IMG/VR virus record: IMGVR_UViG_3300046616_000386
Location: 1 to 20,471 of that record
Source of the DNA: a virus
DNA: 20,471 nt
Direction: 5' to 3' (one strand)
Position 1 is the first letter of the stretch. Every line of letters begins with the position of its first letter. The notes under the pieces were generated by a model. The model made no database searches. It was not told the origin of the DNA and saw only the letters and a list, made by a program, of their open reading frames with translations. The position numbers and the translations under genes were made by a program. Positions 4,410-10,921 of the stretch are shown piece after piece.

Positions 4410-4868
4410 ATGGACGCCCCCACCCCCACCCGCGCGCGGCGCTTCGCGGAAATCGTTGTCCCAGCCGCCGAACGTGCCGGATACACCGGCCACGGATTCA
4501 AAGCGCGCTTCGCGCGGGACACCGGCATGACCGAAAGCAGCGTCGGCCGTATGTGGCAAGGGACTTCGCTGCCTGACCCTCGGTTCTACGAGGCCATCGC
4601 CGAGGTCACAGGCGTCCCACTGGGGCAACTGCTCGTCGAGAGTGGCATCCTGAAGGCCGAATCTCTTCAGTCACTGTCCGAAACTGATCGACCACCGGTA
4701 AGCTCCCGTCTCACTCCGGAAGAAGCAGCAGACCGGCTGGGTATCAAAGACGAAGTTGGCCGCCAGATGTTCCTCGCAACGTACGAGCGGCTCATGCGTC
4801 TACAGAACGAAGATGCCCCCGCCGATCACGCCGCCGACGACCACGGAGGAACAGCAGCACAGATGTGA
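4410..4868 (+). CDS. XRE-type repressor, probable phage immunity repressor
   Basis: A 152-aa protein with an N-terminal helix-turn-helix: GHGFKARFARDTGMTESSVG (about 27-46) followed by RMWQGTSLPDPRFYEAIAEV and GVPLGQLL. A linker (~80-98, Ser/Pro-rich) leads to a C-terminal helical segment (TPEEAADRLGIKDEVGRQMF, LATYERLMRLQ) that could mediate dimerisation, then an acidic polar tail. No LexA/CI-type Ser-Lys peptidase domain is visible, so induction by self-cleavage is unlikely. It is divergent from the Cro-like gene, has the operator O2 in its promoter, and is co-oriented with the membrane protein gene 12 nt downstream. This position makes it the best candidate for the lysogeny repressor. The start has no ribosome site and appears leaderless. 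Confidence 0.8.
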   Translation: MDAPTPTRARRFAEIVVPAAERAGYTGHGFKARFARDTGMTESSVGRMWQGTSLPDPRFYEAIAEVTGVPLGQLLVESGILKAESLQSLSETDRPPVSSRLTPEEAADRLGIKDEVGRQMFLATYERLMRLQNEDAPADHAADDHGGTAAQM

Positions 4869-4880
4869 GGCGGGTTGCGC

Positions 4881-5444
4881 ATGGACGTCACGGCCGGCAC
4901 AAGAGCCACCGCAATCTCCGCGGCGGTAGTCATGGCCGCAGGAATCACGATCATCCTCTACGGCGTCGTACGCAACGACCTAGCACGATCCCTCGGGGGC
5001 GCCTGCCTCACCATGACGTCGCTGACGCTGATAGCCCTGGTCGCGATCAGGCGGTGGGTCACCGACACCAGCGAGGACCGGCGCCTGCTCGCCGCATCCA
5101 TCAGGGAAGCGCAAGCGGAGAAGTCCCGGTACTTCGCGGCCAAGGCCGCACTGGAGAACGAGCAGGGGCGCCTCACCCGGGACGCGGCCATCGACCGTAG
5201 GCGTGCCGCTGCAGCGGCCATGGCTGAACGTGAGGCGCTTCACCAGCAGTTTGAGGAGCGGCGCGCTCAGCTCGTCTGCGAGACGTTCGAGATGGCCTTC
5301 GAGATGGCGCGCCAGGTCCCCGATGAGCACGCGCGGGCCGACGACAAGAGGGACGTGGTCATTCAGTTCCCGGTTCAGCAGCAGGAGCAGGAGCAGGCCC
5401 CGGCCCGGCAGAGGTCGCGCGGGCATAACGTGGTCGGTCCCTGA
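4881..5444 (+). CDS. Two-TM coiled-coil membrane protein linked to the repressor
   Basis: ATG at 4881 is used (187 aa); a TTG two codons earlier is possible, and GAGGCGGG provides the ribosome site. Residues ~9-28 (ATAISAAVVMAAGITIILYG) and ~38-56 (LGGACLTMTSLTLIALVAI) predict two membrane helices with a short loop. Residues ~65-145 form a long charged coiled coil (RRLLAASIREAQAEKSRYFA, MAEREALHQQFEERRAQL), and the tail is Gln/Glu-rich (VQQQEQEQ). It lies 12 nt behind the repressor on the same strand, so it should be expressed in lysogens. Such lysogen-expressed membrane proteins are often superinfection-exclusion factors; that role is inferred from context. Its last 86 nt overlap the end of the integrase gene on the opposite strand. 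Confidence 0.72.
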   Translation: MDVTAGTRATAISAAVVMAAGITIILYGVVRNDLARSLGGACLTMTSLTLIALVAIRRWVTDTSEDRRLLAASIREAQAEKSRYFAAKAALENEQGRLTRDAAIDRRRAAAAAMAEREALHQQFEERRAQLVCETFEMAFEMARQVPDEHARADDKRDVVIQFPVQQQEQEQAPARQRSRGHNVVGP

Positions 5445-6915
5445 ACCCGGGCTCCCCCGCGAACGTCAGCGTGATGCGGCCCGGCTCGATCGAGCGCACC
5501 CCGCGCACCCTCGACTTGTTCAGTTCGATGTTCACCACTGCCCGCAGCACCGTGCGCCGCTGCTCGATGGACAGCTCACCCCATCTGCGGTCCGCCTGAG
5601 GGTTCCCCAGCAGACTGCGCACCAGCGGCGGCGCCGTAGTCACCTCCGCTTCCTCCTTGGCCGCCGCGATCTGCGGCAACAGGCTCTCCTCGATCCCCGC
5701 GAGAGCCGTGATCGACAGCCTCGGCGTGTTGTCCGGACGGAGCGTGGACGCCAACTCCCGCGCCTCCGCCAACTGCTGCTCCAGCGCGGCCTTACGGGCA
5801 CGCGCGGCCGTGGCCTTCTTCTCCAGGCCGTCCGACTGGAACGCAGCGACAGACGCCTTCGAGACAAGCCAGTTGACCACCGCCTCCTCCACATAGGCGT
5901 CCAACTTCTCCTCGTGCATCTGCGTGTCAAAGGCCATCGAGCAGTGGTAGACGGTGCGACCCCGTGAGCGGCCGTGCTTGAGCGGCGGCTGCCCCTCGCA
6001 CTCCCCACACCGCGCGATCCCCGACAGCAGATGCTTCACCGACCAGTCCCGCACCGTCCGCCGCCCCTCGTTCTTGACGATGGCCTGCACCGCGTCGAAC
6101 AGCTCGTCGGACACGATGGCCGGCCATGTCGCCGGCCCGACGTCCTCCCCCTGGAAGACGCGGCGCCCCTTGTAGCCGACGTTCCGCAGCATGGTCGGTA
6201 GGTGGTAGTAGTCCCACGGGATGCCGGGCAGCCGGTCGCCGCGTGTTTTGAGGTCCTGGAGGATGGAGTATTCGGTCTCGCCCGCGGCGACCCGTTCGAA
6301 GATCTCCCGTACGACGGGGCCGCGCTCGGGGTGTTCGTACTGCTCGATGAGGTCGCCGCTGTCGGGGTCGTAGTGGCGGGCGTAGCCCCACAGGATCCGG
6401 CCGTGCGGGAGGCCCTTCTTTGCGTGGGCGCGGGTCGTCCGGAGCACGCGGTCACGGATGCCTTCGGCCTCGTCCTCCGCGGCGAGGGCGTCCTGCGCGG
6501 TGGCTTTGCGGTCCTCGCGCTTGGAGAGGTCGAAGACCTGCCCGTTGTAGCAGAGGAGGACGTTGTTCTCCATGCAGGCGTTGCGCAGCCGGATGTACGC
6601 CTCGATGTCGCGGTAGTAGCGGGAGGCCTCCCATGCGACGACGATGCGGCCGCGGCCGGACTCGATGGCGGCGAGGAGGGCTTCGAAGTCCTTGCGTTGG
6701 CGGCGGGCGTGGCGGGACGCGGAGCGGTCGACGTCCTGGTCGAAGACCTCGGCGACCGGCCAGTTGTACGTGTCGCAGATCTCGCGGCCGGAGTTGATCT
6801 GGTCGGCGACGGAGCGGCCTTTCTTCTTCGGGTCGCGGGAGGCGCGGCCGTAGAGGAGGGCGTCGAAGACTGTGTCGGGGTAGACCATGTGCAGGTACTC
6901 GGGCGCGATGGGCAT
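5359..6915 (-). CDS. int: Large serine integrase (site-specific recombinase)
   Basis: Catalyses recombination between phage attP and a chromosomal attB through a serine-DNA intermediate. With the ATG at 6913-6915 the protein has 518 aa; in-frame GTG (6954) and TTG (6969) starts are also open. The resolvase domain shows the catalytic motif YGRAS (Ser26, Arg24) and WEASRYYRD (Arg99, Arg102). The recombinase domain follows (~155-285, HGRILWGYARHYDP; VGYKGRRVFQG), then a zinc ribbon (C303-x2-C306, C325, H334), a coiled coil (~360-400) and an Ala/Pro-rich tail. Length and order are typical of phiC31/R4-class integrases. The fourth zinc ligand seems to be His, not Cys. The end overlaps the plus-strand membrane protein gene by 86 nt. 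A palindrome just upstream is a candidate attP. Confidence 0.95.
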   Translation of the reverse strand: MPIAPEYLHMVYPDTVFDALLYGRASRDPKKKGRSVADQINSGREICDTYNWPVAEVFDQDVDRSASRHARRQRKDFEALLAAIESGRGRIVVAWEASRYYRDIEAYIRLRNACMENNVLLCYNGQVFDLSKREDRKATAQDALAAEDEAEGIRDRVLRTTRAHAKKGLPHGRILWGYARHYDPDSGDLIEQYEHPERGPVVREIFERVAAGETEYSILQDLKTRGDRLPGIPWDYYHLPTMLRNVGYKGRRVFQGEDVGPATWPAIVSDELFDAVQAIVKNEGRRTVRDWSVKHLLSGIARCGECEGQPPLKHGRSRGRTVYHCSMAFDTQMHEEKLDAYVEEAVVNWLVSKASVAAFQSDGLEKKATAARARKAALEQQLAEARELASTLRPDNTPRLSITALAGIEESLLPQIAAAKEEAEVTTAPPLVRSLLGNPQADRRWGELSIEQRRTVLRAVVNIELNKSRVRGVRSIEPGRITLTFAGEPGFRDRPRYARATSAGPGPAPAPAAEPGTE

Positions 6916-6936
6916 GCCCTTGAGGGTAGCCAGAAA

Positions 6937-6988
6937 GCAACCTCCCCGGGCCACATTGTCAGGTGACAATGTGGTTGCGGGGGGTGGG
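6937..6988. other. Candidate attP attachment site
   Basis: The core is a perfect dyad of 11-bp arms, CCACATTGTCA and TGACAATGTGG, around a central GG (6951-6974). Beyond the arms, the outer flanks keep partial mirror symmetry (C-n-ACC-n-CCC on both sides, 7 of 14 positions), so the symmetric region spans about 50 bp. Size, a non-palindromic central dinucleotide and position just 5' of the integrase fit the attP of large serine integrases. It could instead be an operator controlling integrase transcription. Crossover would be at 6962-6963. Confidence 0.48.
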
Positions 6989-7043: not shown

Positions 7044-7253
7044 TTATTGCTGCGTCATCTCGTCGATGAGTTGCAGCGCGTCATCGAGGCGCAGGCGGAG
7101 TCGCTCGATGACCAGGATCAGGCCTGCGGCGGGGATGGCGCCGAGATCGGTGGCGCGCGCCATTTCGAGGTCGCGGCGCGCGAAGTCGATCCGGGCTGTC
7201 TGCTCCTCGGTCAGGCTGCAGTCGGCAGGGTGCTCGTACATGTGGGGGGTCAC
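7044..7253 (-). CDS. Small conserved protein upstream of integrase, unknown function (69 aa)
   Basis: Starts at GTG 7251-7253 or, alternatively, at the in-frame ATG at 7239-7241 (65 aa), which has AGGTGA 11 nt upstream. The protein is helical and charged: SLTEEQTARIDFARRDLEMA followed by GAIPAAGLILVIERLRLRLD and a short C-terminal helix, suggesting a small helical dimer. I recall similar sequences in Streptomyces phages as hypotheticals. It lies on the same strand as the integrase, 128 nt upstream, so it may be cotranscribed with it unless the hairpin at 7006-7023 or the proposed attP intervenes. Confidence 0.68.
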   Translation of the reverse strand: MTPHMYEHPADCSLTEEQTARIDFARRDLEMARATDLGAIPAAGLILVIERLRLRLDDALQLIDEMTQQ

Positions 7254-7478: not shown

Positions 7479-7712
7479 GTGCCAACCGATCCCCTGCCCG
7501 CCCGGGTACTCGCCCGCCGACAGGCCATCGGAGACCACATCCGCGCCGCCCGCAACGAGCGGAAGCTCACACAAGAGACGCTCGGCGAGCTCACAGGTCT
7601 CGACCGCAAGACGATCAACCGGATCGAACAGGGCACCCACGCGACGAGCATCGACCACCTGATCCTCATCGCCGACGCCCTCGACACCCCGCTCACCGAC
7701 CTCGTCAGGTAA
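7479..7712 (+). CDS. Small XRE-type DNA-binding regulator
   Basis: A 77-aa protein starting at GTG (7479), almost entirely one helix-turn-helix domain: IGDHIRAARNERKLTQETLG (17-36), then ELTGLDRKTINRIEQGTHAT and IDHLILIADALDTPLTDLVR. The pattern is close to the canonical XRE/Cro fold, and nearer to generic Streptomyces regulators than the two immunity proteins. It is transcribed opposite to the 69-aa gene/integrase pair with an 18-bp palindrome between them, so it may control itself and integrase expression. Downstream lies a set of hairpins that should end its transcript. Confidence 0.8.
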   Translation: MPTDPLPARVLARRQAIGDHIRAARNERKLTQETLGELTGLDRKTINRIEQGTHATSIDHLILIADALDTPLTDLVR

Positions 7713-8481: not shown

Positions 8482-8510
8482 AGGAGGGGGTAGCGGTCCT
8501 ACCCCCTCCT
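8482..8510 (-). terminator. Hairpin after the XRE-TPR gene
   Basis: AGGAGGGGGTAG (8482-8493) and CTACCCCCTCCT (8499-8510) form a perfect 12-bp stem with a 5-nt loop, 31 nt after the stop of the 417-aa regulator. TCCTACCCCCT recurs at 8524-8534, 27 bp away, so the segment may also act as DNA-binding sites. The simplest reading is a terminator. Confidence 0.6.
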
Positions 8511-8540: not shown

Positions 8541-9794
8541 TCACACGGGCACACCGAGTTCCCGCGCGAGCCCCAGCGCGTCATCCCGGACCATCCGCGG
8601 CCCCGACTTCACCAGCTCCGGCAACACGCTGCGGGTGTGCAAGTTGTACTGGATCGTCTCCGGAGACTCGCGGAAAGCCTTCCCCAGCAGCGACACCGCG
8701 GCCGTGCCCTCCCCCAGCATTCCGTGCGCGCGCGCCGACTCGATCAGATGGTACGAACGGCGCGTCGCCGACGGGATCCCCCCCAGATCCAACGCCTCCG
8801 CGACTTCGAGCGCCTTCGCGGGCTGCATCAGATCGTTGTGCATGGTGATCGCGTACCCGTTGACGATGCCCCGCCCGAACATCAGCCATGGGTGCGCGTA
8901 GTCGTCACCGAGCTGCCGGGCAGCAGCATCGGCCTTGTCCCAGTACCGCCACGCATCGCCCTGCTGGCCCGTCTTCGCGTACGACAGGGCCACCGCGAGA
9001 TACAGCAGCCCGCGGCGGGCAATGTGCTCCGGGTCCTCTCTGTCCTGCAACAGGGCGGCGGCCTGCTCGGCGAGGTCGACACGCGCCTCCGCAGCCTCAC
9101 CGGCGTCACGGTGGACGTGGTTCATGTACCAGGCGGCGGCCGCGATCGCGCGAGGGCTGTCCGCGTCCTGCGCGGCCGTCATAGCCCGGTCTCCGGTGAG
9201 GACGACGAGATCCGGCGCGGGCTGGAACGAGAGAAAGAGCTGCGCCAGGTGGTAGGTCTCCGCGAGCGAGACCAGCGCCCGCCGGCGCTCCGCCCCATCG
9301 AGGGCGCGGGCCGCGTGCTGGGTGTCGGCGAGGAGGCTGGGCAGCAGGCCGACGATGCGGGTGCGGTTCCCCTCCACCGCTGCCCCGTAGCCGGCGCGGG
9401 GGTCGCTGTCGTGCCACAGGCGCCACGCGGTCCGCAGGCGGGCGGCGAGGATCTCGGCGGACTCCGGCTCGCGGTCGTCGGGGGCGAGCTGGTAGGTGGT
9501 GAGGGCGCGCTTCACGGTCGGCAGATCGCCGTGCTCCGCCTTCGTGTACGTGGCGGCTGCGAGGCGTTCCTCGCCGGTGAGTTCGGCGAGGTCTTCGATG
9601 CCGAGGACGTGCGCGAGGCGGAGGAGTTTGGGGAGGCGGGGCATTCCGATGGAGCCTTTTTCGATGGCTTTGACCCACTCGGTGGACTGGTCCATGAGGC
9701 CTGCGACGACGGCGCGGGTTTTCCCGGTGCGTTCGCGGGCGTGTTGGACGCGCTGGCCGAAGGTAGGGGGTGCGGTGTCGGTGTGCTCGGGCAT
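8541..9794 (-). CDS. XRE regulator with TPR-like C-terminal domain (417 aa)
   Basis: Start ATG at 9792-9794 with GGAG 5-6 nt upstream. Residues ~11-65 form an XRE helix-turn-helix (TFGQRVQHARERTGKTRAVV, DQSTEWVKAIEKGSIGMPRL, LRLAHVLGIEDLAEL). The remaining ~350 residues are all-helical and carry TPR-like hairpins (ALVSLAETYHLAQLFLS; AIAAAAWYMNHVHRDAGEAA; LLYLAVALSYAKTGQQGDAW; AKALEVAEALDLGGIPSATR). The HTH-TPR layout is common among Streptomyces regulators and resembles, in outline, peptide-sensing RRNPP regulators of Firmicutes; a ligand is not shown. It is embedded in phage DNA between the lysis and integration modules. Its own 5' region carries a 25-bp inverted repeat (9804-9828), suggesting autoregulation. 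Confidence 0.82.
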   Translation of the reverse strand: MPEHTDTAPPTFGQRVQHARERTGKTRAVVAGLMDQSTEWVKAIEKGSIGMPRLPKLLRLAHVLGIEDLAELTGEERLAAATYTKAEHGDLPTVKRALTTYQLAPDDREPESAEILAARLRTAWRLWHDSDPRAGYGAAVEGNRTRIVGLLPSLLADTQHAARALDGAERRRALVSLAETYHLAQLFLSFQPAPDLVVLTGDRAMTAAQDADSPRAIAAAAWYMNHVHRDAGEAAEARVDLAEQAAALLQDREDPEHIARRGLLYLAVALSYAKTGQQGDAWRYWDKADAAARQLGDDYAHPWLMFGRGIVNGYAITMHNDLMQPAKALEVAEALDLGGIPSATRRSYHLIESARAHGMLGEGTAAVSLLGKAFRESPETIQYNLHTRSVLPELVKSGPRMVRDDALGLARELGVPV

Positions 9795-10238: not shown

Positions 10239-10921
10239 CACAGGTACTTGCGGCGCGGGTCGAGGCCTGCGGCGAGCGGGGCCGGGGTGTCGCTGCTGCT
10301 CGGATCAGGAGCGCCGTCGCGGCGGCACACCAGCGCGTCGGGGTCGCCAGCGGGAGGCTGGAGGCTGTACCCGTCCGGGCAGGTCTGCCCATCCTGCCCA
10401 TCACGGCCGTCCGCCCCATCCTGCCCCGCGGGGCCAGCAGGCCCGGCAGGACCCTGCTCCCCCTGGGGTCCAGTGGGCCCGGTCGGGCCGGCCGCTCCGG
10501 GCGCACCGTTCGCGCCCGAGCTGCCCGTCGCGCCGGCCTTCCCCGGGGAACCGGACGGGCCCGGGCTTCCCGCGGGCCCCTGCGGTCCGGGAATCGGCAC
10601 CGGGACCTCAGCTCTAGCCGACAGCGACGGCACCGCCTTGCTCGGGTCCGGAGCCACCGGAGTCCCACCCCGCGCCTGCACCTGCGCCCGTAGCGCCCGC
10701 ACATCCCCCGCGAGCAAGCTGACCGCGTCGCCGCGCTTGTTCGCCTCGGCCGCGGCCGCCGCATACCGCCTGTCGGACGCTGCCCGGTCTGCGTCCGACG
10801 CTGCCCGGGCAGCGTCCACGCGATGCCACAGCGCCCACGAGAGGCCGAACAGAGCGACGATCGCGCACAGGACCGCGATGCCGCGCCAGTGGTGCACGAT
10901 CGTGCGCTCAGTACGGGTCAT
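10238..10921 (-). CDS. Membrane-anchored collagen-like protein (227 aa)
   Basis: Starts at ATG 10919-10921, overlapping the previous stop by 4 nt. One membrane segment at ~14-31 (GIAVLCAIVALFGLSWAL) with basic N-terminal residues suggests a cytoplasmic N-terminus. An Ala/Arg-rich helical stretch (~35-85) follows, then about 23 Gly-X-Y triplets (~112-180; GPQGPAGSPGPSGSP, GPTGPTGPQGEQGPAGPAGP), which should trimerise as a collagen-like stalk, and a C-terminal region with two Cys (TCPDGYSLQ; LVCRRDG). It ends the lysis/cell-wall operon after the holin. Collagen repeats in phages are usually in tail fibres; an N-terminal TM anchor here points to an envelope protein, perhaps a spanin-like or surface role. 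That part is inference. Confidence 0.78.
   Translation of the reverse strand: MTRTERTIVHHWRGIAVLCAIVALFGLSWALWHRVDAARAASDADRAASDRRYAAAAAEANKRGDAVSLLAGDVRALRAQVQARGGTPVAPDPSKAVPSLSARAEVPVPIPGPQGPAGSPGPSGSPGKAGATGSSGANGAPGAAGPTGPTGPQGEQGPAGPAGPAGQDGADGRDGQDGQTCPDGYSLQPPAGDPDALVCRRDGAPDPSSSDTPAPLAAGLDPRRKYL

Follow-up and report, generated by a model that had tools for sequence, protein, structure and literature searches.

A palindromic site next to a large serine integrase gene: probable core of the attP of a temperate Streptomyces phage, with comEC as its predicted target

The stretch of DNA analysed here (the window) is an IMG/VR virus record of 20,471 bases that, taken as a whole, has no close relative among phage or plasmid records. 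On its minus strand (5359–6915) lies a gene for a large serine integrase of 518 aa, recognised by Pfam Resolvase and Recombinase domains and by a match to the phrog_95 integrase family (E = 8e-71), and 35–38% identical to annotated phage serine integrases. The gene (int) starts with the ATG at 6915, a start that relatives keep as MPIAPE. Residues 303–331 of the integrase hold zinc-ribbon-like ligands: C303 and C325 are invariant in 26 sequences, residue 306 is either C or H, and a likely fourth position is occupied by D, H or C; the ribbon itself has no Pfam match. Upstream of int is a palindrome (6951–6974), whose centre lies 47 bp from the int start, followed by a 69-aa open reading frame on the same strand (7044–7253), a divergent HTH gene (7479–7712, plus strand), a second regulator gene (8541–9794, minus strand) and tail genes. 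Over the regulator region, identity to Streptomyces phage Chymera reaches 74%. Adjoining the HTH regulator gene 8541–9794, the segment 8482–8534 contains two copies of GGGTA-CGGT-CCTACCCCCT as direct and inverted repeats, a possible operator, and further on a strong hairpin (10775–10817) has 21-nt arms, 90% complementary, separated by 1 nt.

Direct reading of the palindrome gives CCACATTGTCA (6951–6961), GG (6962–6963) and TGACAATGTGG (6964–6974), that is two perfect 11-bp arms around a central dinucleotide, as the original prediction had described. The same prediction, made from the bare sequence, saw mirror-like flanks and a symmetry of ~50 bp. Both are borne out: a repeat-finding program extends the inverted repeat to 22 nt on each side (6940–6961 and 6964–6985, 77% complementary), and an outer motif, ACC-n-CCC on the int strand, stands in mirror orientation on both sides at about positions 16–25 from the centre. 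In 60 dinucleotide shuffles of the whole window, palindromes with arms of at least 11 bp and a spacer of 2 arise at a mean of 0.03 per shuffled window, and at 0.15 if any spacer from 0 to 10 is allowed. The core, TTGTCANNTGACAA, has no second copy within the window, even with up to 3 mismatches. Since the window also contains one longer gapped palindrome (8482–8510) and the 43-bp hairpin (10775–10817), length alone is not distinctive, and the site at 6951–6974 stands out by its place and its conservation.

Relatives of the integrase were collected by scans with a 4-sequence integrase alignment, which was needed because a scan of genome contigs with the single integrase sequence gave no match; 15 loci in bacterial genomes and 16 in viral contigs were recovered in this way. 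Searches against solved structures, by phmmer and with a profile, returned no useful relative. In a side-by-side alignment of the 110 bases that precede the int ATG, most of the close viral contigs and a plasmid have phage sequence on both sides, with a conserved GTAACCCACC stretch, a palindrome and then int. This plasmid (NZ_CP108596.1, locus L005, Streptomyces sp. NBC_01177) is a 51.8-kb circular record with tail genes, an integrase 60% identical to that of the window, an intact attP and a gene order similar to that of the window; it is an extrachromosomal form of a related phage. Three Streptomyces chromosomes retain the int side of the palindrome and carry, outward from its centre, another sequence common to all three. 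At more distant integrase loci (L010–L021, 44–54% identical), a different, non-comEC sequence is found at the same junction position before int.

The sequence shared by the three chromosomes is comEC, with its Competence and metallo-beta-lactamase domains. In these lysogens, S. stelliscabiei (L007), S. cahuitamycinicus (L008) and Streptomyces sp. ISL-98 (L009), whose integrases are ~61–72% identical to that of the window, attL consists of comEC up to the centre and phage sequence from there on. A family search in the same genomes located the missing start of comEC: in S. stelliscabiei it is separated from the rest of the gene by a prophage of 72,507 bp, in ISL-98 by one of 43,582 bp, and in S. 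cahuitamycinicus it lies on another contig; at attR, it adjoins the P half of attP. Two lysogens have exactly CC in common between attL and attR, and the third has CCGGACA, the shared bases beginning in each case at the position of the central dinucleotide of the window. In three relatives, attP is thus divided between the ends of the prophage, at a position aligned with the centre of the palindrome. The original prediction had proposed this palindrome as a candidate attP and had named junctions at 6962–6963 in prophage relatives as its own test; such junctions occur in three lysogens, at both prophage ends, and support the proposal.

Rejoining the flanks restores an open reading frame in all three lysogens, in which ComEC is encoded in frame across the junction (THLLAVSGANFTILLALF or its counterpart). 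The joined 120-bp attB was also compared with 101 Streptomyces genomes, 69 of which have some match, mostly unbroken across the junction; the best empty comEC site is 88% identical over 113 bp, while a few of the 69 matches are short and unspecific. In all nine empty comEC sites that were read, the junction holds CC, which corresponds to the first two bases (GG) of a glycine codon in a VSG motif.

The symmetry of the site is a family trait. Twelve attP sites were compared, nine of them intact and three reassembled from junctions. With the axis placed at the central CC, 60.8% of arm positions 1–20 are complementary, as against 21–33% when the axis is shifted by 1–8 bases. A left arm is more complementary to its own right arm than to those of other phages (P = 0.00035), hence the two arms changed together. 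Positions C2, T5, T6 and A9 hardly vary among the attP arms, and the asymmetric central CC (GG on the plus strand) is present in 12/12 attP sites, in the three attL/attR pairs and in the nine empty attB sites. The arms vary between phages, but the axis and the central CC are constant.

From the junctions of the three prophage relatives and the axis common to the 12 sites, the attP of the window can be delimited as 6937–6988, with two 25-bp half-sites, P′ on the int side (6937–6961) and P (6964–6988), around the crossover dinucleotide 6962–6963 (GG on the plus strand, CC on the int strand). This organisation is that of the attP of the LI / A118 large serine integrase, a pseudo-palindrome in which 25-bp half-sites with inner recombinase-domain and outer zinc-domain parts surround the crossover dinucleotide (PMC3783163); the sequences differ. 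The inner palindrome (6951–6974, positions 1–11 of each half-site, including the nearly invariant C2, T5, T6 and A9) would be the contact of the recombinase domains, and the outer arms, with CACCCCCC on the int strand in P (6979–6988) and the mirror of this motif in P′ (6937–6946), are, by analogy with LI integrase, the presumed contacts of the zinc domain.

Which host site the phage itself uses is predicted from relatives, as the bacterial genomes scanned contained no lysogen of the phage itself. In the integrase tree, the window falls in a clade of 11 sequences, moderately supported at its base (84/97), with three subclades that hold one comEC lysogen each, and it groups with the integrase of S. 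stelliscabiei (95/97). Because the integrase of the window lies inside the clade that contains all three comEC lysogens, comEC is the simplest prediction for its target. On the side of the DNA, the comEC B arm of two lysogens scores 7.7 bits against the attP inner profile (99th percentile of random sequence, 1.9), and in viral contig L003 (about 1116–1132) the P arm has as its innermost 12 bases GTGAAGTTGGCC, identical to the B arm of the comEC attB of S. stelliscabiei. The inner arms of the window match the comEC B arm at 5/12 bases. With the outer profile, the B′ arms of comEC attB score at inward shifts of 1, 3 and 5 and the B arms at none; the 5-bp inward shift of the zinc-domain motif described for LI integrase on attB (PMC3783163) is therefore allowed by the comEC B′ arm, but it is one of three shifts that all score.

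The region between attP and int is also conserved. A −10-like box, TACCCT (6923–6928, minus strand), stands 7 nt before the ATG, and a TANNNT box is found 5–7 nt before the int ATG in 25/26 relatives, where 7% would be expected; a Shine–Dalgarno-like motif before int is absent in 26/26 relatives examined. Together, the conserved spacing of TANNNT and the lack of a Shine–Dalgarno motif suggest that the int mRNA is leaderless and is transcribed from a promoter overlapping the outer part of P′. A scan with the sigma-70 consensus returned no promoter near the attP site, though the conserved box is present there. According to the original prediction, integration at an attP here would part int from both the 69-aa gene and the promoter. 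The first part stands, the 69-aa gene being at attR and int at attL in the lysogens; the second does not, and loss of the int promoter on integration is rejected, since the conserved −10-like box, located between the crossover and int, is kept in the three comEC lysogens.

Across attP from int, the 69-aa gene is conserved in 12 loci and was not recognised in two others (L031 and L036). Its product has no family match; the model is a two-helix helical hairpin (pLDDT 86), and a fold search with this model gave generic helical-hairpin matches only, none with E ≤ 0.001. In phiJoe, the gene for the 62-aa recombination directionality factor (RDF) is placed in the same way with respect to attP and int, which makes the 69-aa protein the first RDF candidate of this system. 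Streptomyces phage Joe (phiJoe, KX815338; PMC5311408) likewise has a ~50-bp attP directly upstream of int, with an inverted repeat (CCATCTGGGGGCAGATGG) centred on GG and a small open reading frame across attP, encoding the RDF gp52. However, BLASTP hardly aligns the two integrases (E = 0.05), no alignment or sequence similarity is seen between gp52 and the 69-aa protein, gp52 is divergent from int whereas the 69-aa gene is on the int strand, and phiJoe has its attB in a radical SAM gene, not in comEC. Judged by these features, the module of the window resembles that of phiJoe in layout and is not a close relative of it. Insertion into comEC has a precedent outside Streptomyces: streptococcal prophages Phi1207.3 and Phi10394.4 are serine-recombinase prophages inserted at a dinucleotide inside this gene (PMC4260502). 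In contrast to the window, they belong to Firmicutes, use a GA dinucleotide and carry two or three resolvases at their ends instead of one large integrase adjoining attP. A search for comEC and attB with serine integrase or with Streptomyces found no report in the collection of papers covered.

The palindrome is thus best explained, with a probability put at about 0.94, as the core of the attP of a temperate Streptomyces phage, whose serine integrase would recombine attP with an attB in comEC at the central dinucleotide. The evidence for this reading is in sequence: the junctions of relatives at the dinucleotide, the in-frame comEC after rejoining, the unoccupied sites and the axis of symmetry common to 12 attP sites. 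One dimer of the integrase (518 aa) would bind the two attP half-sites and a second dimer the attB inside host comEC. Following the usual chemistry of serine integrases, both sites would be cut at the central dinucleotide (GG on the plus strand, CC on the int strand), and the halves exchanged and religated. The prophage would then have attL at its int end and attR at the end with the 69-aa gene, and comEC would be split at the VSG codons. In layout and presumed mechanism, the system corresponds to serine-integrase systems already known.

Operators are typically perfect short palindromes, and with HTH genes nearby and a position just upstream of the int promoter box, the palindrome could be taken not for attP but for an operator through which a phage repressor (e.g. 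the HTH proteins encoded at 7479–7712 or 4410–4868) regulates int or the 69-aa gene. This is very improbable: prophage junctions fall exactly at the centre of the palindrome, which argues against an operator as its sole function, the sequence of the arms changes from phage to phage around a fixed axis and central CC, and the symmetry spans ~50 bp, with a single copy in the window, operators usually being present in more than one. Metagenome virus records can be prophage fragments, so that the window might be the end of an integrated prophage and the palindrome an attL or attR. Hardly any weight can be given to this view either, for both sides of the palindrome are phage, one with int and the other with the 69-aa gene, regulators and tail genes arranged as in the circular phage-like plasmid NZ_CP108596, and the attP-type outer motif is present on both arms, comEC sequence not being seen.

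Two further possibilities keep the site as attP. Integration at a host site other than comEC would agree with the non-comEC sequence at the junction of more distant integrases of the family and with the limited similarity between the inner arms of the window and the comEC B arm, but it is unlikely: comEC is the target of all three integrases of the clade whose junctions are known, although their identity to that of the window ranges from 72% in one down to 61% in another, and the attP of S. stelliscabiei, which targets comEC, also matches at just 5/12. A control function of attP, compatible with its role in integration, deserves more credit, though we lean against it. Integrase bound to P′ would cover or touch its own promoter and repress int, attP doubling as an autoregulatory operator. 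The TANNNT box is ~34–39 bp from the centre, placing the −35 region inside the P′ arm, and the presumably leaderless start is conserved in 25/26 relatives. P′-bound integrase could compete with RNA polymerase; against this, the sigma-70 scan shows no consensus promoter.

Taken as an attP with a comEC target, the site may belong to a self-contained, comEC-specific cassette characteristic of a clade of Streptomyces phages. This cassette would comprise int with a leaderless promoter overlapping the outer attP, attP itself and, directly across it, a new helical-hairpin RDF, and its crossover would be tied to the conserved Gly codon in the VSG motif of ComEC, at the first two bases of that codon, with lysogeny breaking a DNA-uptake gene and precise excision restoring it. 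As a whole, this picture is tentative and rather doubtful in its full extent.

From a guess on raw sequence, the analysis has arrived at a mapped integration system, with its attP, the crossover base, and an attB assigned to a host gene. The integration sites in use are those of phiC31, phiBT1, TG1, R4, SV1, phiJoe and Samy (PMC12924846), to which the comEC site, common in Streptomyces, would add another. The analysis also names a candidate for the RDF, the part that is usually missing for new integrases. In a survey of large serine recombinases, DNA competence genes are reported to be strongly enriched among the targets, and the main text does not name comEC (PMC10083194). The system described here adds a Streptomyces case to this reported tendency of elements carrying large serine recombinases to disrupt genes for DNA competence.
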